DNA of 26,809 nucleotides from the IMG/VR virus record IMGVR_UViG_3300026518_000051, positions 1-26,809 of that record; one strand, 5' to 3'. This document shows, in pieces, positions 5,066 through 24,376 of this stretch. How positions within the stretch are numbered: position 1 is the stretch's first letter; each line of letters opens with the position of its first letter. This stretch comes from a virus. The notes beneath the pieces were generated by a model. The model was not told the origin of the DNA and did no database searches. It was given only the letters and a program-made list of their open reading frames with translations. A program made the translations under genes and the position numbers.

Positions 5066-5869
5066 CTATCCTTGTAGTCCATTAGATGCACCCCAGGATG
5101 CTATTTGAGATGGTGATAAGTTCCCATAGTTATTAGTGCCATTAATAGCTCCCATTGAAGATAAACTAGTGCTACCCCCGAATGTACTATTACCGAAGCC
5201 ACCACCTAGCATATATCCTCCAAGCTGCATCATGCCGCTACCGAATTGGCCCCAGCCTTGAGCATTATGCATACCTATTTGAGCTTGCATATTTCCACCT
5301 TGTTGTACCGTATTTGCCATATTGTTATTGCTATTGACTATTCCTGCCGCTTGGCCATTAGCAACATTTCTAAGATTATTTTGCTGATTAGTACCCCAAT
5401 TAAGCCAGTTCATTTCTTGCTGGTTGTATTGATTTACAGCATTTTGTCTGTTCTGACCTAATAATTGCTCTCTAGCACTCTCAAGAGCTAGCTGGGCTGA
5501 TGCATGTTGGCCTGAACTATACATCCCATTATTACTAAACATAGCATCTACATTCTTTTGAGTTCTCTGGTATTGGCTCTCAATAGCTTCCTTGCCCTGA
5601 AGCTGAAACATTTCAGGAGATATGTTGTTGTAGTATTTAGCTAAGTTGTCTCTTATAGGACCAAATATATCCTCCAACTGAGCCACATCCTGCATATTCT
5701 TTTCATAGTTTGCCATCTGAAAGTCCATACCTTGCTGCTGCTGTGCCAGTGATGCTGCAGTTCCCTGGGCTTGCTTATCTGCAGCATCACTAGCTGCCTT
5801 ATTACTCATATAAGCCGCACCTGCTGCGCCTGCCGCAACTACTACGGCTGCTGTTATTGTACCTGACAT
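5066..5869 (-). CDS. Ejection-like virion protein with N-terminal hydrophobic helix
   Basis: This 267-residue protein begins with an Ala/Gly/Val-rich hydrophobic helix (about residues 4-25), then a Gln-rich helical segment (AAS...LAQQQQGMDFQMANYEKNMQDV), a central region with ALESAREQLLGQNRQNAVNQYNQQ, and a Gly/Asn/Gln/Ser-rich low-complexity C-terminal half. That layout resembles small DNA-transfer or ejection proteins (P22 gp7, T7 gp14-like) that enter the host envelope at infection. The ATG at 5869 lies 16 bases inside the end of the SET-domain gene, with AGAGGAGA as ribosome binding site. It precedes the portal by three bases. The ejection role is inferred from architecture and neighbours; I cannot assign a named family with certainty. 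Confidence 0.65.
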   Translation of the reverse strand: MSGTITAAVVVAAGAAGAAYMSNKAASDAADKQAQGTAASLAQQQQGMDFQMANYEKNMQDVAQLEDIFGPIRDNLAKYYNNISPEMFQLQGKEAIESQYQRTQKNVDAMFSNNGMYSSGQHASAQLALESAREQLLGQNRQNAVNQYNQQEMNWLNWGTNQQNNLRNVANGQAAGIVNSNNNMANTVQQGGNMQAQIGMHNAQGWGQFGSGMMQLGGYMLGGGFGNSTFGGSTSLSSMGAINGTNNYGNLSPSQIASWGASNGLQG

Positions 5870-6588
5870 GAAATCTCCTCTTTAAGTTTTGTAATGTTGT
5901 CACCATAATCTACAGTAAATTCAGTATCTATTTCTATATCTGTTATAGCATATACTGTCATTACCCCATCATTGAACTCCATTCTAGTGTTAGGGTTATC
6001 TGAATGATTGACATATCTACCTAGTTCAGAACGAATACCAGCCTTGCTGGCTACACCAATGTATTCTCCAGCATAAATATATCTATCAGAGAATAAACCC
6101 TTGCCATGTATAGGACTATCCTTGATAGTATAAATGTTTAAAGGCTCATATGTGCTATCATCAAATGAAATAGCATCTACATGCTCCCTTGTCAAACCAT
6201 GATTAGCAAGCATCCAATTAAACTTGTCCTCCTTAATGGTCATAAACTCATTCTCTATTTCATCTATGTCTTTGCTGTCAGTAGGAAATATGTTATGAAC
6301 TACGCATTTAGTGTATGCGAAACCTACCTTCCTACTCCCATCTAAACTCTCAAATGTAGTTGGAGCTTCTATTAATCTACTCTCATTACCTATTCTAATC
6401 TGCATAACGCCTTGAACAAGAGTAGTTAGGTGCTTAGTTTTATGCCCTGCACCTAAAATGATTGAACCTGCTGGTACTATCATCTCACGTATGCACACAC
6501 CATCACTAAAATAGTGGTTAGTTTCCGGCTTAAACTCCTGGCCATTATTGAGTAACACTTTTAATGGTTCAGTTATATCAGCATTCAT
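5854..6588 (-). CDS. Cupin-SET fusion, putative protein lysine methyltransferase
   Basis: A 244-residue two-domain protein. Residues about 33-105 look like a small cupin barrel: a promoter-proximal strand run REMIVPAGSIILGAGHKTKH offers H49 and H53, with H98 further on as possible metal ligands. Residues about 151-230 form a compact SET domain: HGKGLFS (161-167) for the S-adenosylmethionine loop, RYVNHSDNPN (191-200) with the NHS core, and EFTVDYG (223-229) with the expected catalytic Tyr228. SET enzymes transfer methyl groups to protein lysines. The inner SET region is short, about 80 residues against the usual 110-130, and no Cys-rich post-SET is seen. ATG 6588 has AGGAG upstream and overlaps the previous stop as ATGA. 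Sitting among virion genes, it may modify a virion or host protein; the substrate is unknown. Confidence 0.85.
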   Translation of the reverse strand: MNADITEPLKVLLNNGQEFKPETNHYFSDGVCIREMIVPAGSIILGAGHKTKHLTTLVQGVMQIRIGNESRLIEAPTTFESLDGSRKVGFAYTKCVVHNIFPTDSKDIDEIENEFMTIKEDKFNWMLANHGLTREHVDAISFDDSTYEPLNIYTIKDSPIHGKGLFSDRYIYAGEYIGVASKAGIRSELGRYVNHSDNPNTRMEFNDGVMTVYAITDIEIDTEFTVDYGDNITKLKEEISCQVQ

Positions 6589-6746
6589 TTTGTTAGCTCC
6601 TGCTTTAAATATGAGACAAAAGAGGCATAGTTAGGTTGATTACAAGCTTCAACTAGGGCTAATCTTATTATCTCTAATGCATCAGCAACCTGTTGATTAA
6701 ATATCTGCTGCAATTCTGGTTCCTCATTACTAGGTATATCAAGCAT
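6585..6746 (-). CDS. Small hypothetical protein, 53 aa
   Basis: A 53-residue frame fills the gap between the nozzle gene and the cupin-SET gene. Its ATG (6746) overlaps the nozzle stop by 8 bases, and its TGA overlaps the next ATG as ATGA, so translation is probably coupled on both sides. The protein is acidic at the N-terminus (DIPSNEEPELQQ) and otherwise a predicted helix ending LKQELTK. It is too short for most ORF callers but leaves no unused bases. I recognise no family and see no membrane or metal-binding motif. Confidence 0.7.
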   Translation of the reverse strand: MLDIPSNEEPELQQIFNQQVADALEIIRLALVEACNQPNYASFVSYLKQELTK

Positions 6747-9264
6747 TAGATCTCCCTTTTACAGAATACTCAATACCATGCAGCTTATCACATCCACTAA
6801 CCTCAAATTGGATAGAGTATCCTTTATTTTGCTCATTCGGAATGCCTATGATTGTTAAAGGCTCTACTATTGCTGCATTGCTTATAACTGCTACATCATC
6901 AATGTACACGGTTATAAAGCCTTTGCCCTCTAAGTTAACCCTTACTTTATCATACTCTTTTAGATTGGTAGTAGTTCCATCTACAAGTTTACCTGAGCGG
7001 TAAGACATTGTTCTAAGTGTCTTATTGGTTGAAAGCACTCCCGGCAATTCCCCTATTGACGTGAACACTATTTCTTCCCTACTACTATTAACAGAGCCAT
7101 AAAGTCTACCATCAATAGAACCTAGACCGTCTACTCCCTCAGCAAGTATATATGTAAACGTACTGTCCAGCATATTTAATCGAAGTATTCTACTATCGTT
7201 AAGTAACAGAAAATAATCCTCACCTACCACTGCAGATGATACTATGTGACCGACCATGTTTATTATACCTAGTTTCGCATAGCTTATAAGTTTAACTGTT
7301 CCACCATTAGTGACAATTATACCTTCAGCGCTTGCACACAATACTGAGCCTTGCCACTGCTGTATAGACTTAAAATCTATACACCCTTGGGAATTTGAAA
7401 TAGCTCTAAATGTAAAGTTATCACTTACTGTATTAGCTAATACATAAGTCTTGTGACTAGAAAACACTATTAGCCCGTTAGCAGATGATGCTAATCCTGT
7501 AATGGAATAACTATGGTTAAGGAAATTTAGACTGTCCCATGCATTGGGATTACCTAGATTTGACCAACGAAGAGTGAAATACTCATCTAAATTAACAGTA
7601 GTGTCATCATATACAATCCAACCTAAGTCCCTATAAACTATTCTACTTGCATTATCTACTGTCTGGCCTTTTAGGTCACCAGTAGTATATGTGTATGGTG
7701 CTGACAGCCCGCTAACTACATAGTAGTCTTTGTAGTTAGGAGTGCCAGCTGGATACTCACTAGTGCTGCTAGGGGTATACACTGTGTTAATGAATGTAAA
7801 ATCTTTTGTAGCACCAAACAATCTGCCTTTATGCTCAGTGAAGAACATTATATCTTCTGGTACAGCACCTAATGTTCTAGGAGGCATAAGTTTGCCTAGT
7901 CCCTCTATTAATGAGGAGTCTTGAAATGTTAGAGGTGTATCTAAAATGTTAAACTGCTTAACAAACAGAAATGATGTACCTCCACCATACAATCCTGAAT
8001 TACGTCGATACAAGTTTAGCAGGTGTGTATCGGCATTAGGTTCATCTAGCTTAGGTATGTTTACGGTTATAGCCTCACCAAAAGAGTTTATTATATCACT
8101 AATAGGTCCTGCAGTAGTCTCATTACCAGTAGTGTTCTCAAATGTTAGGGCATATTCAAATGAACCAGCAAGTGATTTATTCATTGGAGTAGTTAAGTCT
8201 AAATCACCACCTATACCATTAGCCACAGTAGATGAAAGTTCATATACTAGTGGAGTATTCTTGAACCACTTACTCTTCTCTATTACCTCGTATCCGTCAT
8301 ACTTAACAGTAAACTTCACAAAATATTTATAGCCATCCCCTGCAGGGCCATACCAACCCATATCAAACATTTTCATTCCAGCAATTCTGGTATCATCCCT
8401 AGTAGCTAAGTGTATTGTTACACAGCAGGCACCATCAGCAGCTGTATCAGTACTTACTGTGCCTTTAGCAAAATCTAATATATTTGACTGCGGTTCAGTG
8501 AATACCTTACCTGGATGAACTTTAGCCGTACCATCACCTAACCACTCTATTGTACAGTGTGCAATTGCAGCATATAATCTACGTACATCCCTACCATAAG
8601 GTATTCTACTATATCCTGCATAGAAATGGAAGTCCCTAATAATGCCTCCAGCATCACTACCCTTAAGAAGATAGAACTTATTACCTACTAATCTCCATAT
8701 ACGTACTATATTTGGAACAGCTGAGAAATCTACATCCACTGCAGATTGATTATGATTGCTATCACTAATCACTCTAACTGATTGGTACATTATATTTCCT
8801 GAACCATCATCAGTTTTAATCAAATACACATAGGCAGTATCAGCTTGTAATGCTCCATCCTCATTAGGATAGTTATATTGAAACGTTACTGTACCATCAG
8901 CAATGGTTATTAATTCAGTGGTTACTGGTTCACTAGGTGAAGCTATGCCCATTTCATACCATTCTATTGAGTTGGTACCTAGTGGCTTACCCAATGTATA
9001 TCTAGGTGACTTACCGTCAGATTTGAATAAGTAATCATGTACTTTGGCAAACTTTACAAGTTTACCATCTACTGATATAGTTCTGTTCTTGTAGTCTATA
9101 AATACAGGATGAACATTATCCTCTACATGGTATGAATGAGGTAAAGATGCCAAAGAACCTGACACTATGTCAGCATCCACAATATCAGCGGCTTCATTTA
9201 GTGCTAACTTGTGTAAGTCTTTTAAAGTGTTTACACCACCATTAAATAAATTCAGTTCTGGCAT
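6739..9264 (-). CDS. Tail nozzle / beta-propeller tail protein
   Basis: This 841-residue, beta-rich protein probably forms the nozzle or hub at the distal end of the short tail, the role of T7 gp12 and P22 gp10. Features seen include an N-terminal segment on domain-assembly helices (KDLHKLALNEAADIVDADIV) and a C-terminal series of blade-like repeats: FTEHKGRLFGATKD, LRWSNLGNPNAWDSLNF, then ITGLASSANGLIVFSSHKTYVLA and QGSVLCASAEGIIVTNGG. The RWS.. .NP..WDS..F followed by a GLIVFSS..TY block is the typical signature of these propellers. It is larger than P22 gp10 and near T7 gp12. A dedicated promoter with two TAAGATT boxes lies just upstream (9285-9315), with ATAAGGATG before the ATG at 9264 serving as ribosome binding site. 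Confidence 0.8.
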   Translation of the reverse strand: MPELNLFNGGVNTLKDLHKLALNEAADIVDADIVSGSLASLPHSYHVEDNVHPVFIDYKNRTISVDGKLVKFAKVHDYLFKSDGKSPRYTLGKPLGTNSIEWYEMGIASPSEPVTTELITIADGTVTFQYNYPNEDGALQADTAYVYLIKTDDGSGNIMYQSVRVISDSNHNQSAVDVDFSAVPNIVRIWRLVGNKFYLLKGSDAGGIIRDFHFYAGYSRIPYGRDVRRLYAAIAHCTIEWLGDGTAKVHPGKVFTEPQSNILDFAKGTVSTDTAADGACCVTIHLATRDDTRIAGMKMFDMGWYGPAGDGYKYFVKFTVKYDGYEVIEKSKWFKNTPLVYELSSTVANGIGGDLDLTTPMNKSLAGSFEYALTFENTTGNETTAGPISDIINSFGEAITVNIPKLDEPNADTHLLNLYRRNSGLYGGGTSFLFVKQFNILDTPLTFQDSSLIEGLGKLMPPRTLGAVPEDIMFFTEHKGRLFGATKDFTFINTVYTPSSTSEYPAGTPNYKDYYVVSGLSAPYTYTTGDLKGQTVDNASRIVYRDLGWIVYDDTTVNLDEYFTLRWSNLGNPNAWDSLNFLNHSYSITGLASSANGLIVFSSHKTYVLANTVSDNFTFRAISNSQGCIDFKSIQQWQGSVLCASAEGIIVTNGGTVKLISYAKLGIINMVGHIVSSAVVGEDYFLLLNDSRILRLNMLDSTFTYILAEGVDGLGSIDGRLYGSVNSSREEIVFTSIGELPGVLSTNKTLRTMSYRSGKLVDGTTTNLKEYDKVRVNLEGKGFITVYIDDVAVISNAAIVEPLTIIGIPNEQNKGYSIQFEVSGCDKLHGIEYSVKGRSNA

Positions 9265-9284: not shown

Positions 9285-9315
9285 ATTATATCCAAATAAT
9301 CTTAAAATAATCTTA
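9285..9315 (-). promoter_or_regulatory. Internal late promoter with two phased TAAGATT boxes
   Basis: On the minus strand a perfect TATAAT (9290 to 9285) is preceded at exactly 14 bp by TAAGATT (9304 to 9298) and at 25 bp by a second TAAGATT (9315 to 9309), an 11-bp phase. The distal box overlaps the stop codon of the upstream 208-residue gene. The same geometry is present at the scaffold and RHH promoters. It should give a separate transcript for the nozzle gene and those behind it. Confidence 0.65.
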
Positions 9316-9327
9316 AACTAGTTTAAG
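9312..9327. other. 16-bp perfect palindrome at the end of the 208-aa gene
   Basis: CTTAAACTAGTTTAAG is fully self-complementary and covers the last codons and stop of the upstream gene. It overlaps the distal promoter box, so it may be an operator rather than a terminator. There is no loop long enough for a good hairpin. Confidence 0.45.
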
Positions 9328-9941: not shown

Positions 9942-10331
9942 TTATTCTCCCATTCTTTTAGCTAACTCTTGTGCACGGTTAGGTGTCTGTTTAGCCCATC
10001 TACTATCAAGCATTTCTACTGCTGCCTGAACATAATCAAAGTTCTCTAATGCTTGCCACATTTTTTTAAACTTCAACACTCCATTAACTCCCATTTGATA
10101 AGCCATCTCAAATAAGATACCCTGTTTTTCTGATGGCAGGTTAAGTAACATTGGCTCTTTCTGTATGAGCTCATTACTCAGGATATCTAATCTGTTCTTC
10201 AAAAGCATTTCGCCCTCAGCCCTTGATATAGGTAATTTAGTCCCATATCCAATCGTTAAGAAGCCTTCAGTATCTCTATAAGGCTTTCCATCAAAGCCCT
10301 CATGCTCTTTGATACTATCTATTAATTCCAT
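9942..10331 (-). CDS. Endolysin, T4-type lysozyme (glycoside hydrolase family 24)
   Basis: A 129-residue muramidase cleaving the N-acetylmuramic acid to N-acetylglucosamine bond of peptidoglycan to release progeny. The T4 lysozyme catalytic triad is at the same numbering: Glu11 (KEHEGF), Asp20 (YRDTEG) and Thr26 (LTIGYG). The second lobe carries FEMAYQMGVNGVLKFKKMWQ, NFDYVQAAVEML and a SRWAKQTPNRAQELAKRM ending, all family hallmarks. It is shorter than T4 lysozyme (164 residues). There is no signal peptide or hydrophobic anchor, so export should rely on the holin coded two genes upstream. ATG 10331 lies 10 bases inside the zinc-ribbon frame, with CAAGGAAAATAA as ribosome binding site. Confidence 0.93.
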   Translation of the reverse strand: MELIDSIKEHEGFDGKPYRDTEGFLTIGYGTKLPISRAEGEMLLKNRLDILSNELIQKEPMLLNLPSEKQGILFEMAYQMGVNGVLKFKKMWQALENFDYVQAAVEMLDSRWAKQTPNRAQELAKRMGE

Positions 10332-10474
10332 TTATTTTCCTTGTAATGTTTTAGTGCTAACACTTTGTGATATACCCTAGCATATCGCTTACATTTAGCG
10401 CATTTTCCGTCATACTGAGGTATAAGCGCTATGTGAACTAGTTGATGCTTGATACAGCCACTACATAAAAACAC
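10322..10474 (-). CDS. Zinc-ribbon miniprotein, 50 aa
   Basis: A GTG-started frame of 50 residues fills the space between holin and lysozyme. The GTG (10474) shares a base with the holin TAG, and AAAGGT lies a few bases upstream, so coupling to holin translation is likely. Cys4-x2-Cys7 and Cys25-x2-Cys28 form a textbook four-cysteine zinc site in a very small basic protein that ends in KHYKENKWN. The stop lies 10 bases into lysozyme. The four cysteines in CxxC pairs in so short a frame are the main support. Its function is unknown; a small nucleic-acid-binding or host-interaction protein is plausible. Confidence 0.65.
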   Translation of the reverse strand: MFLCSGCIKHQLVHIALIPQYDGKCAKCKRYARVYHKVLALKHYKENKWN

Positions 10475-10911
10475 TATTTACCTTTATACACTTTAATTGA
10501 TTTCTCAACACTTCTACCTATTACATAACCACCTAGACCAAGCTCTAGTAACTTCCACATATTATCTGGTATCGGTAATGCTGTTGCAGTACCACCAAAT
10601 AGAGATATGTAAGGAAATAGAATGTAATTGTTAGCAATAATAAAGACAAATACTAGCATAGTAATAGGTCTCCAATTCTTGGCCATCCAGCTGTCACTGT
10701 TTGTTTCAGCCTGAATAATCTTGCTCTGTTCCTTGATTATTGTTTTGGAGTAGTCATTGAGTTGTCTGTTCATTTCAAGTTGATAGGCTTGAATTCCTTG
10801 CTCTAATTTAGCTTTCTGTTCAGGCGTTAAATCAGGCGGGAAATAACTCTTAATTAGTCCTGCCCCTGCATCAACTACTTTACCTATTAGGTCTCCAATT
10901 ATTGGTATCAT
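10474..10911 (-). CDS. Holin, GTA-type three-helix family
   Basis: A 145-residue membrane protein matching the 3TM holin family of gene transfer agents and related phages. Signature segments are SWMAKNWRPITMLVFVFIIA (residues 74-93), the second hydrophobic region YILFPYISLFGG, and the end LPIPDNMWKLLELGLGGYVIGRSVEK (written here as the MW.LLELGLGGYV.GRSVEK motif). An amphipathic N-terminal helix and a charged linker (residues 28-70) precede the membrane part. It should set lysis time and let the cytoplasmic lysozyme reach the wall. ATG 10911 overlaps the previous gene by 4 bases, with GGAGAACTAAATG as initiation region. Confidence 0.88.
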   Translation of the reverse strand: MIPIIGDLIGKVVDAGAGLIKSYFPPDLTPEQKAKLEQGIQAYQLEMNRQLNDYSKTIIKEQSKIIQAETNSDSWMAKNWRPITMLVFVFIIANNYILFPYISLFGGTATALPIPDNMWKLLELGLGGYVIGRSVEKSIKVYKGK

Positions 10912-11579
10912 TTAGTTCTCCTTGTTCCAAATTCCCAACTGTAACATTTTAATCCATTTACAGTATTGCGATATTTCCAACCAAAAACCCTATTAAATAT
11001 GGCAACACTAAATACTTTTTCATTAGTGCAAAGTTGGTTAAACTTATAGTTAAAATTATAAGCAGGATTACGAATTGTCCATAATAGCACGCTCCAAAAC
11101 TCATAAAGTGGATACTCTGCTCTTCTATCTCCTAAATCAAATGAGTTGCCTGTTATGGTTCCTTTTGTAGAGTTTATAGCATTGCCTAATTTAGTTTTTA
11201 TAAATCTAGGCATCCACTTCTTACGTTCCCCATTAACAATAGTTTCATTGAAATTCTTATCATAAGTATCTTCATTGCAATCATCATCAAGTAATAGCCA
11301 AAAGAATACAAATGAATAATACTCTAAGTGCGATATCTTTCTGAATTTTATCATTCCCCTATCATTACTATGTAAGTTTTTAAGATAATAATATCCTAAT
11401 AGCACATCAAGCTGAGGTTCTCGCTCAAGTAGTCTCTTTAATGGAATTTTATTTTGTAGATGATAGTTATACACCATGTTTCTTAGATAACCTCTAAATG
11501 GTATAGCAATAAATACCAATGGAAATATTAGTCGTCTAAAAACAACCAGTGTTAAGACAACGAAATAGTTACCAATCAT
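10908..11579 (-). CDS. Conserved-looking phage membrane-associated protein, 223 aa
   Basis: The N-terminal 30 residues are strongly hydrophobic with interspersed Arg (YFVVLTLVVFRRLIFPLVFI), suggesting one membrane anchor. The soluble part contains WSVLLWTIRNPAYNFNY, a pattern I have seen in other phage hypothetical proteins of lysis or tail-end regions, and a C-terminus ending GTRRTK. That C-terminal RRTK is dictated by the AGGAGAACTAAATGA sequence that also serves as ribosome binding site and start of the holin gene. ATG 11579 overlaps the previous gene by 4 bases. The role is unknown; position between a coiled-coil membrane protein and the holin suggests a part in lysis or superinfection control. 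It is not a known enzyme by any motif visible. Confidence 0.6.
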   Translation of the reverse strand: MIGNYFVVLTLVVFRRLIFPLVFIAIPFRGYLRNMVYNYHLQNKIPLKRLLEREPQLDVLLGYYYLKNLHSNDRGMIKFRKISHLEYYSFVFFWLLLDDDCNEDTYDKNFNETIVNGERKKWMPRFIKTKLGNAINSTKGTITGNSFDLGDRRAEYPLYEFWSVLLWTIRNPAYNFNYKFNQLCTNEKVFSVAIFNRVFGWKYRNTVNGLKCYSWEFGTRRTK

Positions 11580-18024: not shown

Positions 18025-18717
18025 TTATAAAATTTCATAAGAGCTAGACTTCTTACTATCTGCTGCTTCATGCCCAGCTAGTTTACCAATATTAGTTTGG
18101 CCTAGTCCCTCATCTGTTGGTTTAACTACTTTACCTTTATTAAGATATTTCGCAACTTCTTCTAAGTAATCGTTGAACGGCATCTCATTAATCTTCTTTT
18201 GAAGACGAGGCGGAATGTCATTCTCCATTACATCATCGGTCAACTCTATACCCGTACGAGATGTAAAATCTGCAAGTGCAGTTTGACGCTGAACTACTGT
18301 TAGGTCCTTAACGGCTTTCTCAGCCGCTTCGTCCTCTAATGTTCTTAGTTTCTGTTCAAGAGTTGCTTTAGCAGTTCTCTCATAATCAAGTTTCTTGTTG
18401 AACCATGCATCAGGGTCCGTAAGTTTCAATTCCTCAAGCTCTGCCACTTGTTCTGCAGATAGTGACACAGAATTGGATAGTTGAGACTCTAGAGCTTCCT
18501 TAGCAGCTTTGATACGTGCCAACTCTTGCTGCGTTTTAGTAAACGTAGCTTGGTGGTCGCGCGCTTTCTTTTCGGCTATTACAGCTTTTTTAAATAGCGG
18601 GTCGACGTCTTCACCGAAAAGAACTTTACCTTTATCATCTACATTCTTTAATGCCTCATTGATTTTCTCGTCAAGAGTTGGCACATGCTCTTGAGGAGTG
18701 TTTGCTTTTTCAGCCAT
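18025..18717 (-). CDS. Capsid scaffolding protein
   Basis: A 230-residue, highly charged, mostly helical protein immediately upstream of the major capsid gene, the standard place for a scaffold. Helical segments include KAVIAEKKARDHQATFTKTQ, ELARIKAAKEALESQL, and KATLEQKLRTLEDEAAEKAV, all coiled-coil-like, with a Lys-rich segment near the C-terminus (YLNKGKVVKP) as a possible capsid-binding region. It should direct assembly of the procapsid and then leave. It is the first gene of the minus-strand late operon: its ATG at 18717 is preceded by AGGGGA and the promoter at 18747-18777. Confidence 0.82.
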   Translation of the reverse strand: MAEKANTPQEHVPTLDEKINEALKNVDDKGKVLFGEDVDPLFKKAVIAEKKARDHQATFTKTQQELARIKAAKEALESQLSNSVSLSAEQVAELEELKLTDPDAWFNKKLDYERTAKATLEQKLRTLEDEAAEKAVKDLTVVQRQTALADFTSRTGIELTDDVMENDIPPRLQKKINEMPFNDYLEEVAKYLNKGKVVKPTDEGLGQTNIGKLAGHEAADSKKSSSYEIL

Positions 18718-18746: not shown

Positions 18747-18777
18747 ATCATATCATAATAATCTTAAACTAATCTTA
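18747..18777 (-). promoter_or_regulatory. Main late promoter with two phased TAAGATT boxes
   Basis: On the minus strand TATGAT (18752 to 18747), preceded by TGA as an extended -10, lies 14 bp after a TAAGATT box (18766 to 18760). A second box (18777 to 18771) is 11 bp further up. The 30 bases at 18751-18780 are an inverted copy, with one mismatch, of 18937-18966 in the opposing promoter. It should drive the scaffold-to-ejection operon. Confidence 0.65.
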
Positions 18778-18909
18778 ATCGCATATCTTTGATATATGGG
18801 TCGATAATATCTCAAGATATAGATAGATTATATAGATATTATCTTCTCATATAACCTAACTATGTCATCCTGGTCTATCATTATATATAGGACTCAGGAA
18901 TTAGAAGTA

Positions 18910-18957
18910 ATTAAGATTAGATTAAGATTAGATTAAGATTAAGATTAGATTAAGATT
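18910..18957 (+). repeat. TAAGATT operator array before the RHH gene
   Basis: Five TAAGATT boxes start at 18912, 18923, 18934, 18940 and 18951. Four intervals are 11, 11, 6 and 11 bp, so boxes mostly lie on one face of the helix. Tandem short repeats just upstream of an RHH gene are typical operators for RHH autoregulation. Apart from the promoters and this array, the 279-base divergent gap holds only AT-rich sequence. Confidence 0.65.
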
Positions 18958-18970
18958 ATTATGATAAAAT
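18951..18970 (+). promoter_or_regulatory. Promoter of the RHH-terminase operon
   Basis: TAAAAT (18965-18970) with TG one base before it forms an extended -10. The nearest TAAGATT box starts 14 bp upstream (18951), the same spacing as at two late promoters, and another is at 18940. Transcription would start near 18977, followed by AAGG and the GTG of the RHH gene. Confidence 0.6.
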
Positions 18971-18996: not shown

Positions 18997-19158
18997 GTGA
19001 GAATATCTGTATCAATCCGTGATAAGGATGAAGTAGCAATAAAGGCATTAAAAGCTATAGAAAAGAAAGCTCAAACTAATGGTATGAGCCTATCATTGTA
19101 TATTAGAAATTTAATAGTAAAGGATTATAATGGTATATATAATAGCAGACATACATAG
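18997..19158 (+). CDS. Ribbon-helix-helix DNA-binding regulator, 53 aa
   Basis: A 53-codon frame starting with GTG at 18997, with AAGG ten bases upstream, and ending TAG at 19158, so overlapping the next gene by 29 bases. The N-terminal strand MRISVSIRDKDEVAI, first helix around KALKAIEKKAQTNG and second helix MSLSLYIRNLIVKDY fit a small Arc/MetJ/CopG-type fold. Such proteins bind as dimers, inserting the strand pair into short tandem DNA repeats. The array of TAAGATT boxes starts 85 bases upstream, suggesting autoregulation and control of the opposing late promoter. Fold assignment is by pattern; the target sites are inferred. Confidence 0.7.
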   Translation: MRISVSIRDKDEVAIKALKAIEKKAQTNGMSLSLYIRNLIVKDYNGIYNSRHT

Positions 19159-19588
19159 AGAATATATGAAAATAGGTGTAACATCTAATATAACTACGCG
19201 ATTAGCTACTCTACAAAGTAATTGCCCGTTAATATTGGAAATAGTAAAACTAATTAAATTACCTGATGCATCATTAGATTATGCATTAGAGAAAGAGCTA
19301 CATAGTAATGAGCTATTAGACAAAGTACAAGGTGAATGGTTTAAATATAACAAAGAATTTATATATGATGCAATAAATATAGCTAATATAGAATTAGTAG
19401 ATACCAAACCTATAAATAAAGAATGGCCTAAGGAAAATACTGTATCTGTTATTAGATATAATAATCTTATGTTAAAATATAATACGATTAAAAAGAAGAA
19501 TTCATACTATAAACGTAAAATACTAGAACTTAAAGATAAGATTGCAACTTTAAAATACAATGAAAATTATATACTAGGAGAACTATAA
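19130..19588 (+). CDS. GIY-YIG-superfamily (T5orf172/MUG113-like) protein
   Basis: 152 residues. The N-terminal domain (1-75) reads VYIIADIHREYMKIGVTSNI, with KIG at 14-16, Arg24, Leu-Gln at 28-29, Glu54-x3-His58 and GEWF at 68-71; these are the positions expected in T5orf172/MUG113-type GIY-YIG nucleases, with Tyr3, Arg24 and Glu54 or Glu69 as likely catalytic residues. Residues about 108-145 form a Lys-rich coiled coil that may bind DNA. It lies between the RHH gene and terS and overlaps terS as TAATG, with AAAGGA as ribosome binding site. Nuclease genes next to terminase are common, either as homing-type passengers or as packaging or exclusion factors. The role here is unproven. Confidence 0.75.
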   Translation: MVYIIADIHREYMKIGVTSNITTRLATLQSNCPLILEIVKLIKLPDASLDYALEKELHSNELLDKVQGEWFKYNKEFIYDAINIANIELVDTKPINKEWPKENTVSVIRYNNLMLKYNTIKKKNSYYKRKILELKDKIATLKYNENYILGEL

Positions 19589-20085: not shown

Positions 20086-21664
20086 CTGGTATCTAAACAT
20101 AGCTAAGGAGGAGTTTACTAAACTCTACCCTAATGCAGATATAACTATCTTTGAGCGAGAGCCAGATAGTGATGAAGATTTAGTGGCTAACTTCCTGCCT
20201 AGTAAACTATGGAGACTTAACAACCTCTATACTATTATTAATAAGGAAGGTGTTAAAGTCCCATTTATTATGAACCGTGCTCAGCACCGTGCATACTCTG
20301 CATTGCTACAGCATCCTAGACTAATTATTCTCAAGTCACGACAGCAAGGTATCTCTACATTTTGGCTCATTAACTACTTTGATGATGCCTTATTTATAGA
20401 GGACCTTAACATTGGTATGCTTGCTCAGGGGCTTGAAGAGGCAAGTACACTACTGGAGCGGGTTAAAATCGCTTGGGATGCACTACATCCAGGCATAAAG
20501 TCCTTCCTAGGCCTACATGTAGTCAAGGACAATTCCAAGGAGTACTCTTTCAACAACGGCTCTACCATCTTCATTCGTACATCGTTCCGTTCTGCTACAC
20601 TACAGAGACTACACGTATCAGAGATGGGCAAGATATCGGCCAAGGACCCTCAGAAGGCCAAGGAGCTCATGACAGGAACTATGCAGGCGATCAAGGCAGG
20701 TAACCCCGTTGTTATTGAGAGTACGGCTGAGGGTCGCAAGAACCAATTCTACAAGATGTGGTATGATGCTGTAGACTTCGTAGGACAGCGAGACCTTAAG
20801 GCCTTCAAGCCACTCTTCCTCTCCTGGGTCGATGATCCTGACTGTATCGCCGACATACCCCAACGTATTAGTGATGAGGACCAGGCCTACTTCTCTAAGG
20901 TTGAGCATGACCTAGGCATCACACTATCGAATGAACAGAAGTGGTGGTGTATCGGCCAACGGCGTGAACTCGGCGAGAACTTCGACCAGGAGTACCCATA
21001 TAACGCTGAGGCAGCCTTCGCCGCAGTACGCGACGGAGCTTATTATGCTCGCGCCTGGACCAAAGTACGCCGTATACTACCTGATCTGTACGACCCCGCA
21101 CTATCTGTGAAAGTAGCCATGGACCTTGGTATGAATGATACTATGGTGTTAGTATTCTGGCAGGAATACTATAACTCTAATGGTGTGCTAGAACTACGAA
21201 TAGTTAAGGAATATCATAATTCTGGCGAAGGGCTACGCCATTACTATGAGGTTATACGTGACACTGGATGGGCCATTGCCAAGGTTATACTACCGCATGA
21301 TGTTAAGGTTAAAGAGCTAGGTACAGGACGTAGTAGACTAGGTATACTTCGCGAAATGGGCATGCGAAACATTAAGGTACTACCACGAACTAATAATGTA
21401 GCCAATGACATAGAACTAGTTAGACAAGCGCTGCAACATATTGTTCTAGACGAGTCTTGCAGTTATATAGACAATATGTTCCATAACTATTCCAAGCAAT
21501 GGGATGAGAGACTAAGTAGTTGGAAAGATAAGCCACTCCATGATGAATGGTCTAACCCTGCTGATGCCGTTCGTTATATGGTGGTTAGTATCTTTGGCAG
21601 TCTTAAAAGAGCTGAGAAACCTGTACGTAGAGATAGTGGCGGCGGGAAAATGTTGGCACTCTAG
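20078..21664 (+). CDS. terL: Terminase large subunit (packaging ATPase-nuclease)
   Basis: 528 residues: the DNA-packaging motor and headful or site-specific nuclease. ATPase motifs: Walker A LKSRQQGIST (residues 85-94), a Walker B-like LHVSEMG (178-184, Glu182) and the coupling motif VVIESTAEG (211-219). The RNase H-like nuclease begins near residue 345 with KVAMDLGMNDTMVLVFW (Asp349), then VILPHDVK (Asp408) and HDEWSNPADAVRYMV (Asp489, Asp496). Length is typical. Around 20560-21110 the gene is far richer in GC than the rest: I counted 28, 31 and 35 G or C per 60 bases at 20701, 20821 and 20941, against 20 of 60 at 20221. This may be a recombined segment. Confidence 0.92.
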   Translation: MSNWYLNIAKEEFTKLYPNADITIFEREPDSDEDLVANFLPSKLWRLNNLYTIINKEGVKVPFIMNRAQHRAYSALLQHPRLIILKSRQQGISTFWLINYFDDALFIEDLNIGMLAQGLEEASTLLERVKIAWDALHPGIKSFLGLHVVKDNSKEYSFNNGSTIFIRTSFRSATLQRLHVSEMGKISAKDPQKAKELMTGTMQAIKAGNPVVIESTAEGRKNQFYKMWYDAVDFVGQRDLKAFKPLFLSWVDDPDCIADIPQRISDEDQAYFSKVEHDLGITLSNEQKWWCIGQRRELGENFDQEYPYNAEAAFAAVRDGAYYARAWTKVRRILPDLYDPALSVKVAMDLGMNDTMVLVFWQEYYNSNGVLELRIVKEYHNSGEGLRHYYEVIRDTGWAIAKVILPHDVKVKELGTGRSRLGILREMGMRNIKVLPRTNNVANDIELVRQALQHIVLDESCSYIDNMFHNYSKQWDERLSSWKDKPLHDEWSNPADAVRYMVVSIFGSLKRAEKPVRRDSGGGKMLAL

Positions 21665-21820: not shown

Positions 21821-21848
21821 CTTAAGAATTAAATTTAATTTAAAAATT

Positions 21849-21879
21849 TAAGATACTCTCAACCATAATGTGATATAAT
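21849..21879 (+). promoter_or_regulatory. Extended -10 promoter with one TAAGATA box
   Basis: TATAAT (21874-21879) has TG one base upstream, a strong extended -10. A TAAGATA box starts at 21849, exactly 25 bp before the -10, the position of the distal box in the late promoters; the proximal box is absent. The box also pairs in inverted orientation with 21818-21825. Confidence 0.6.
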
Positions 21880-22048: not shown

Positions 22049-22507
22049 ATGAAAAAGTCAGAATTAATCGCACAGGTTAACGAAGTTATCGCAGGTATTA
22101 AAGACAAAAAATTGTCAGAAGAGTTAAGTCGTATTATAAATGAGTACGGAGCAACTAAAGGTGGCAATAAAGTCGATGAACACCCACCAGTTCTTAACAA
22201 AGATGGAAGTATCAAAGAACTATGGTGTACTAAACACTTGCAATACGAACCAGTTGAGTTATTTAGAAAGTCAACTCGCGGAGCTACTGGGTATCACTAT
22301 AACTGTAAAGTTGCAGATGCTCAATGGCGTGAGATTACTAACAAAATCAACGAAACAAACAAAGCGTTATCTGAGGCATTAACAGAGGCAAACTTTGAGG
22401 AAGCCGCTAAACTCAATGAAGAGAAAAAATCTCTTGAAGCTGAGAGAGCAGCACCTTATGAGTACGATGAGGACATTGAAGCTGAAATCAACTCGGAAGA
22501 TAAATAG
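22049..22507 (+). CDS. Small zinc-site protein with C-terminal helical hairpin
   Basis: 152 residues from ATG 22049, chosen because AAAGGA lies eight bases upstream; the frame could extend to GTG 22001 but that region is the structured leader. After an N-terminal helix (LIAQVNEVIAGIKDKKLSEE) comes a probable zinc site, Cys60-x2-His63 and His83-x2-Cys86, within ELWCTKHLQYEPVELF and GYHYNCKVADAQWR. The C-terminal part (INETNKALSEALTEANFEEA) is a charged helical hairpin, ending very acidic. Phage proteins with a W-C-x2-H-x2-YEP core and similar helices exist, but I know no function for them. As the first gene after the early promoters it may be abundant. Its codon use resembles the capsid genes more than its neighbours. 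Confidence 0.8.
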   Translation: MKKSELIAQVNEVIAGIKDKKLSEELSRIINEYGATKGGNKVDEHPPVLNKDGSIKELWCTKHLQYEPVELFRKSTRGATGYHYNCKVADAQWREITNKINETNKALSEALTEANFEEAAKLNEEKKSLEAERAAPYEYDEDIEAEINSEDK

Positions 22508-23590: not shown

Positions 23591-23911
23591 ACTACCTCGT
23601 TTCATCCATAACTATTGATAGTTTGGTCGATATTTAATCTTAAAAATTTCTTAATCAATATTTCAATAATTATATAATTATAAGAGATATAAAAAAATAA
23701 AAAAGATACAGAGGTAAGATAAAAAAAGTTGTCCGTATAGGGTCTATAATTTTATAATTATTATAATTATACTCTGGGGGTTAAATCTGTCTTAAATCAA
23801 ATTATAGGAAATTTAATTTGATTTAAGAAATATTTAAGATATAGAATATAATTATCTTTTATCTTATTTTAATATATAATTAGATATAATTATATATTAA
23901 AGGATAATGAT
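23591..23911. other. Very AT-rich gap, candidate replication origin
   Basis: No gene was seen in these 321 bases. A hand count of 23641-23700 gives 5 G or C of 60. There are many TATAATTA-like runs, a 14-bp inverted repeat (23791-23827) and one GC-rich spot, CTCTGGGGG, near 23773. Such an unwinding-prone block next to the primase-helicase gene suits an origin, but no known initiator-binding repeats are seen. Possible -10 elements lie near 23840-23852. Confidence 0.4.
23791..23827. repeat. 14-bp inverted repeat in AT-rich gap
   Basis: CTTAAATCAAATTA (23791-23804) pairs exactly with TAATTTGATTTAAG (23814-23827), leaving a nine-base loop. No T-tract follows, so it is more likely a binding site or origin element than a terminator. 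Confidence 0.55.
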
Positions 23912-24376
23912 ATGAAATACTACCATCTAAAGAAATTACTAGAAACACCTAACAACCCCGATTATTACAAGTTGTTGTCAGAGTATTCCAAGCCTATACT
24001 CAAGGCAATAGAGCATAAAAGTCAGTACGCAGTGGCCAAGGACCTCAACATGGTTCAACCAAAGCTATCAATAGTTAAAGAAATGTTAAAAGTTACAGAG
24101 GACATTCAATTAGATATAGGTTTTATATATTTAATAGTCTTCGAGGACTCTTATAAACTAGCATATACTACCACATTGAAAGAGTCACTCATAGAAGTCT
24201 CTCGCAATGAAGATGGGTCAGTAAAGCCAGTAATATCAATACAAGCTCACTCAACAAGCGAAGACATAGCAGCTCAAGTTATTCGTATATTCTCCACTCC
24301 ACTAAATATAGCAGTAGAACGAAACACAATCTCTACTAATACCTACAATCTACTTAGTATGTTAGATATAGGATAA
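23912..24376 (+). CDS. Helix-turn-helix protein with possible degenerate GIY-YIG domain
   Basis: 154 residues, ATG 23912, with AAAGGATAATG as ribosome binding site, followed after three bases by the primase-helicase gene. Residues about 24-60 form a helix-turn-helix (KPILKAIEHKSQYAVAKDLN then MVQPKLSIVKEML). The second domain (70-135) begins FIYLIVFEDSYKLAYTTTLK and runs on to SEDIAAQVIRIFSTPL. That strand-strand-helix order parallels the GIY-YIG protein at 19130, but KIG is replaced by KLA and the Arg is lost, so a nuclease would be inactive. It may regulate or initiate replication, being next to the putative origin. The HTH is fairly clear; the second-domain relation is a hypothesis. Confidence 0.65.
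   Translation: MKYYHLKKLLETPNNPDYYKLLSEYSKPILKAIEHKSQYAVAKDLNMVQPKLSIVKEMLKVTEDIQLDIGFIYLIVFEDSYKLAYTTTLKESLIEVSRNEDGSVKPVISIQAHSTSEDIAAQVIRIFSTPLNIAVERNTISTNTYNLLSMLDIG

Follow-up and report, generated by a model that had tools for sequence, protein, structure and literature searches.

Genes and box promoters in the window

The window (the whole stretch of DNA analysed, 26,809 nt) is a 26.8-kb virus record with a podophage layout, in which scaffold-like, capsid and tail genes make up a leftward arm, and RHH, small terminase and large terminase genes make up a rightward arm. The scaffold-like ORF (18025–18717, minus strand, 230 a.a.) lies 5' of the major capsid gene and is named from synteny; its family is PHROG 24492 (unknown function). 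The RHH gene (18997–19158, plus strand) encodes a small ribbon-helix-helix-like protein of 53 a.a. with a weak NikA-like Pfam match, below the cut-off, and the nozzle/tail protein ORF (6739–9264, minus strand, 841 a.a.) is assigned to PHROG 511, labelled internal virion protein. An ORF further to the right (23912–24376, plus strand, 154 a.a.) is HTH-like by eye, with nothing over the cut-off in Pfam or PHROG; its counterparts in related phages are also preceded by a box.

Among the tail genes, an ORF at 5854–6588 encodes a SET-domain protein (Pfam PF00856, E-value 4e-10); related ORFs are present in three related records (G003–G005), with a box promoter directly 5' in G003 and G004. Between the RHH and small terminase genes lies a T5orf172/MUG113 (GIY-YIG-like) ORF (19130–19588) that overlaps the end of the RHH gene and was not seen at the same place in the relatives examined. 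A family of short ORFs recurs, usually right behind a box promoter (22049–22507 in the window, 10828–11373 in G003, 10317–10772 in G004 and 21191–21637 in G005); the two members scanned belong to PHROG 10459 and the remaining members were judged by eye.

The composite TAAGATT-N4-TAAGATT-N7-(−10) has exactly three matches in the window: 9285–9315 (minus strand), 18747–18777 (minus strand) and 18940–18970 (plus strand). The scaffold-operon promoter TTAAGATTAGTTTAAGATTATTATGATATGAT (18747–18778, minus strand) has half-sites at 18771–18777 and 18760–18766 and a −10 hexamer TATGAT at 18752–18747; the RHH/terminase-operon promoter TTAAGATTAGATTAAGATTATTATGATAAAAT (18939–18970, plus strand) has half-sites at 18940–18946 and 18951–18957 and a −10 hexamer TAAAAT at 18965–18970; and the promoter of the nozzle (tail) gene, TTAAGATTATTTTAAGATTATTTGGATATAAT (9285–9316, minus strand), forms with the preceding T a perfect TTTAAG-N5-TTTAAG. 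The original prediction had placed TAAGATT seven bases before the −10 at these promoters (14 nt from start to start), with a second TAAGATT 11 nt further up, and both spacings are exact at all three. It had also described the 30-base halves at 18751–18780 and 18937–18966 as inverted copies, and alignment confirms reverse complements with one mismatch; this similarity is that of a single promoter present in two divergent copies. What is conserved at the core is TTAAG-N6-TTAAG: the repeats are one helical turn apart, and the distance from the proximal TTAA to the −10 is 15 or 16 nt. A scan of the window with the composite returned the three exact matches and two overlapping three-mismatch matches inside the RHH array, whereas dinucleotide shuffles of the window gave 0.04 matches at three or fewer mismatches, so the predicted excess over shuffled sequence of the same composition is borne out.

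Two boxes were first described at each promoter, but the RHH promoter has five half-sites (18912, 18923, 18934, 18940 and 18951). The extra ones occupy 18911–18940 (plus strand; starts 18912, 18923 and 18934) 5' of the promoter, and, counted from the predicted start, those at 18912 and 18923 would fall at roughly −48 to −65. Likewise, the claim that the box occurs nowhere else with this spacing holds for exact matches within the window, but not for degenerate copies. One weaker variant (21848–21879, plus strand), with a distal TTAAG, a proximal TCAA and then GATATAAT, is found 5' of the ORF at 22049–22507; another (23858–23890, plus strand), with TTTA-N7-TTAA and then GATATAAT, has its −10 start 27 nt from the ORF at 23912–24376, and an additional TTAAG-N6-TTAAG pair lies 5' of it at 23823–23838. 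Since these degenerate boxes precede two further genes of the window, the regulon exceeds three promoters.

Conservation and anatomy of the box in related viral records

A search with the capsid protein yielded six relatives, and a profile added a seventh. Their scaffold/terminase intergenic region has TTAA-N7-TTAA and, after it, TATAAT or a sequence close to it, with TAAGATT itself drifting; the exception is G001, which has a one-mismatch form only. A scan of related phage genomes, as first suggested, for TTAA-N7-TTAA-N11/12-TAWRAT gave 28 matches in five of the six related records (0 for the reversed pattern). Six relatives at a greater distance, KF-1, VPMS1, PH1 and Amaethon among them, had no match to this pattern. 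In five records the motif stands far above shuffles, with three to eight observed against 0.015–0.1 expected. When one mismatch is allowed, there are 39 sites in the window and seven related viral records: all 39 fall between genes, and in records with called genes nearly all are just 5' of one, most of the −10 hexamers being 14–60 nt before the start codon and some up to 358 nt. The view of the boxes as a coherent promoter (regulon) signature in the −35 region is upheld.

Both the box and the −10 served to select the 39 sites, which makes those consensus columns circular, but not the flanking columns and spacing counts. Among the unselected columns, the proximal TTAA is followed by G in 74% and by T in 23% of the sites, A stands directly before the −10 hexamer in 82%, and the position before that is G in 79% (the g of gnTATAAT). 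A −35-like hexamer (TTGACA with at most two mismatches, at 16–18 nt) is found at one of the 39 sites. TTAAG-N6-TTAA is a sharp spacing peak (37, vs. 2–14 at other spacings), and TATAAT most often follows TTAAG at 10/11 and 21/22 nt, so the half-sites lie near −38 and −27. This register is that of OmpR/PhoB-type activators at promoters lacking a −35 element, phoA being the promoter compared.

Two other arrangements were observed. In G005 (locus L024, 13891–14185), four tandem copies of the promoter, 84–89 bp apart, occupy non-coding DNA after the large terminase gene, possibly as a strong early promoter cluster. In locus L007 (3380–3450), one TTAA-N7-TTAA box is common to both of two divergent promoters.

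The box in bacterial genomes and in other phages

The pattern TTAAG-N6-TTAAG-N10/11-TATAAT is found in 137 of 298 Campylobacterota genomes, and its reversed form, which is the composition-matched control, in about six of the 298 (counted by eye). It is found in three of 299 Pseudomonadota genomes and in 10 of 199 genomes of the Ruminococcus phylum, counts to be read with the different base content of these phyla in mind. The repeated Campylobacterota copies that we inspected lie 5' of 16S rRNA, 23S rRNA and tRNA genes. A stringent motif matched GTDB genomes in several groups, five Campylobacterota among them; phage-like stringent copies lie 5' of tRNA-Glu in Sulfurovum and of tRNA-Phe in Nitratifractor, and the nozzle promoter matches a Sulfurovum tRNA-Glu promoter at 83% over 46 bp. 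The strict form with GATATAAT is rare in Sulfurovum's own family (5/60), and is also present in Ruminococcus, Streptococcus and a few gammaproteobacteria.

In Ruminococcus, TTAAGA-N5-TTAAGA-N9-TATAAT precedes genes at loci L053, L055, L060, L069, L071, L072 and L075, the adjoining genes encoding dockerin-like and VTC-like proteins (named by eye); these boxes probably represent a separate OmpR-family regulon. Such exact-pattern matches raised a Ruminococcus-type host for the phage, which is disfavoured by the counts (10/199, vs. 137/298 in Campylobacterota).

A host search of GTDB genomes with the capsid protein found no relative, and DNA matches of the phage in 397 Campylobacterota genomes included none callable as a CRISPR spacer. 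The best DNA matches are to the lysozyme gene: three at E < 1e-20 in the 397 Campylobacterota genomes and one (3e-19) in 398 Pseudomonadota genomes. Protein-level relatives of the lysozyme are found in many phages, and the DNA matches weakly favour a Campylobacterota host. The form of the promoters also suggests a host in the Campylobacterota, perhaps one near Sulfurovum.

Among viral contigs, one of the stringent-motif matches was Campylobacter phage CP220. It has 36 sites (one for the reversed control), and phage NCTC 12673 has 20 (none for the control); in the first 49 kb of CP220, eight out of nine plus-strand sites end 6–28 nt before an annotated gene. By RNA-seq, most transcription of NCTC 12673 has been ascribed to two novel AT-rich motifs (Sacher et al. 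2018, PMC6024767), a study that is not known to name an activator. A scan of T4, Staphylococcus phage K and H. pylori phage KHP30 (NC_019928) gave 0 sites; since KHP30 lacks the box, promoters of the type proposed below are not universal in Campylobacterota phages.

Candidate readers of the box

The OmpR/PhoB-family response regulator HsrA, known as HP1043 in H. pylori and CosR in C. jejuni, has a site very like the phage box. In H. pylori this site is a direct TTTAAG-N5-TTTAAG repeat, 11 bp centre to centre, which replaces the −35 upstream of the −10, and the top HP1043 ChIP peaks include tRNA and 16S rRNA promoters (PMC5253667). The sigma-70 promoters of Campylobacter and Helicobacter have the form gnTAnaAT, with no −35 and with a T signal at −27 and −38 (PMC3847290). 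The phage sites have a pair of TTTAAG-like direct repeats, spaced by 5 bp and of 11-bp period, in place of a −35 and just upstream of a housekeeping −10; and in Campylobacterota the same site type sits at rRNA and tRNA genes, in agreement with the ChIP peaks. An orthologue of HsrA/CosR is encoded by Sulfurovum G007; in its DNA-binding part it is almost the same as the C. jejuni CosR of entries 8UVX and 8UUZ (PMC10936212). Given the matches to the HP1043 site, the gnTAnaAT form and the host rRNA and tRNA promoters, HsrA is the best reading: we propose, with a probability of about 0.8, that the boxes are sites for this essential orphan host regulator, which would activate the promoters of a Campylobacterota phage family. 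That HsrA binds, that it activates and does not repress, and which host is involved are what we infer. An activator, one of the readers originally considered, is the likely one; its sign is taken from the position of the sites, because CosR represses some genes too (PMC10936212, PMC4943160). The genome of Sulfurovum G007 encodes 22 proteins with an HsrA-type DNA-binding domain, so another regulator might be the reader. Our literature search, largely outside subscription journals, found no paper linking CosR/HsrA to phage promoters.

The RHH protein, also proposed originally, could have the box as its operator, repressing (or activating) the scaffold and nozzle promoters as well as its own: the densest array of boxes is directly 5' of its gene, and at the same locus cultured Kafunavirus relatives have a palindromic, divergent operator-like element beside a homologous RHH gene. 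But the box and the RHH gene dissociate. A profile search for RHH matched the window, G002, G003 and G004, as well as KF-1, VPMS1, PH1 and Amaethon, which do not have the box; the box is present with no RHH detectable by this search in G005 and G006 (the latter a 4.7-kb fragment); and loci L033 and L045 combine the RHH N-terminus of KF-1 type (MAVYSFST) with a TTAAGA box. The box is found, moreover, at host rRNA and tRNA genes and in CP220 and NCTC 12673, and we rejected the RHH protein as reader, rating it very unlikely. (A protein search for RHH in viral contigs gave no matches.) A further rival is another phage-encoded activator, for example the HTH-like product of 23912–24376 and its counterparts, working like lambda CII, which reads direct repeats near −35. 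A box does precede the ORFs placed like this one in G003, G004 and G005, and a weak one precedes it in the window; neither it nor its counterparts have clear Pfam or PHROG support as regulators, however, and the same box stands at host stable-RNA promoters and in unrelated Campylobacter phages, so that we give this activator a very slim chance. No OmpR-type DNA-binding domain was found in the ORFs of the examined phages (phmmer with the HsrA domain, best E-value about 2), which together with the dissociation of RHH and box makes a host factor likelier. A non-standard sigma factor, the remaining suggestion, is unsupported: an unusual −10 or a single −35-like element would be expected, and what is seen is an ordinary gnTATAAT with two identical boxes one turn apart.

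Within the OmpR family, the PmrA-type box is HTTAAK-N5-HTTAAK, CtrA reads TTAAC and ArcA reads GTTAA. The box could belong to CtrA (in an alphaproteobacterial host), to PmrA/BasR or ArcA (in a gammaproteobacterial host), or to some other regulator of this family: CtrA sites are TTAA-N7-TTAA and host CtrA controls alphaproteobacterial phages (PMC9437464), in promoter regions where the sites of our phages likewise lie; PmrA-type boxes share the geometry of the phage box; and capsid relatives of the phage infect gammaproteobacteria. All three were considered for their geometry; the flanking bases and genome counts disfavour them. The base after TTAA is G in 56–74% and rarely C (3%), and the base before is rarely G (3%), a misfit to CtrA and ArcA; the pattern counts (3/299 Pseudomonadota, vs. 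137/298 Campylobacterota) and the gnTATAAT without a −35, which is the Campylobacterota form, also speak against this reading, which seems to us highly improbable. Least probable of all, no regulator would be involved and the pattern would be the AT periodicity of −35-less Campylobacterota promoters. Campylobacter sigma-70 promoters do show a periodic T signal and no −35 (PMC3847290), but the specific TTAAG half-site, the sharp N6 spacing and the conserved G go beyond a periodicity of T, and equal the footprinted HP1043 site.

Proposed mechanism and implications

On the HsrA reading, a dimer would sit on the two direct TTAAG half-sites, on one face of the DNA at about −38 and −27, and stand in for the −35 hexamer; it would recruit host sigma-70 RNA polymerase and aid opening at the gnTATAAT −10. 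One host-type promoter would drive both arms, with the structural genes read leftward, and RHH/terminase and replication genes rightward, the RHH promoter carrying extra half-sites placed like the distal HP1043 site of H. pylori rpoD. In this way one host protein may turn on most of the virus's genes. Because genes of growth, translation and energy are those with which HP1043 is associated, we speculate that the phage is most active in growing cells.

We consider it somewhat more probable than not that at least two unrelated Campylobacterota phage lineages (the podophage family and the Campylobacter myophages) independently put much of their transcription under HsrA/CosR, so that infection would read the growth state of the host, which could not escape by losing the regulator. 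If true, phage transcription would have in HsrA a named candidate activator, in a phylum whose phage promoter logic is poorly known, and this would explain how phage promoters without a −35 could be recognized. The box could also serve as a sequence mark by which uncultured phages are assigned to hosts in the Campylobacterota, and CP220 and NCTC 12673 make the idea directly testable in laboratory phage–host pairs.

Comparison with known systems

The phage promoters resemble HP1043/HsrA and CosR promoters in having direct TTTAAG repeats instead of a −35, upstream of a housekeeping −10, which at the HP1043 promoters is now and then of the extended type. The distal second site of HP1043 at H. pylori rpoD (−45 to −68; PMC5253667) resembles the array at the phage RHH promoter. 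The known promoters serve chromosomal genes, whereas those described here are phage promoters to which binding is predicted; and of the two HP1043 half-sites one is strong and the other weaker, whereas both are strong in the phage.

NCTC 12673 (Fletchervirus) and CP220 (Firehammervirus) share with the window the arrangement TTAA-N7-TTAA-N11/12-TATAAT, but they are T4-like myophages, unrelated to the podophage. Conversely, Kafunavirus and its relatives (KF-1, VPMS1, PH1 and Amaethon) have a homologous capsid (40–43% identity) and the same scaffold/RHH/terminase order with divergent promoters, but lack the TTAAG box and have gammaproteobacterial hosts. In KF-1, an Edwardsiella phage (locus L015, 41330–41370), a palindromic divergent promoter of the TATGTTTACAATTGTAC type lies between the scaffold and RHH genes. 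Box promoters stand where these gammaproteobacterial relatives have a different operator, as would be expected if a change of host rewrote the promoters.

Control of phage promoters by a host regulator has a known precedent in the CtrA-controlled phages, which likewise have sites for a host OmpR-family protein, with TTAA repeats of an 11-bp period in promoter regions (Mascolo et al. 2022, PMC9437464). The regulator is different and the phylum probably is too. Sites in the CtrA phages cluster in certain regions and have ties to the cell cycle and to pili and flagella (PMC9437464), whereas in the window phage they serve promoters genome-wide, and HsrA is linked to growth and translation genes.
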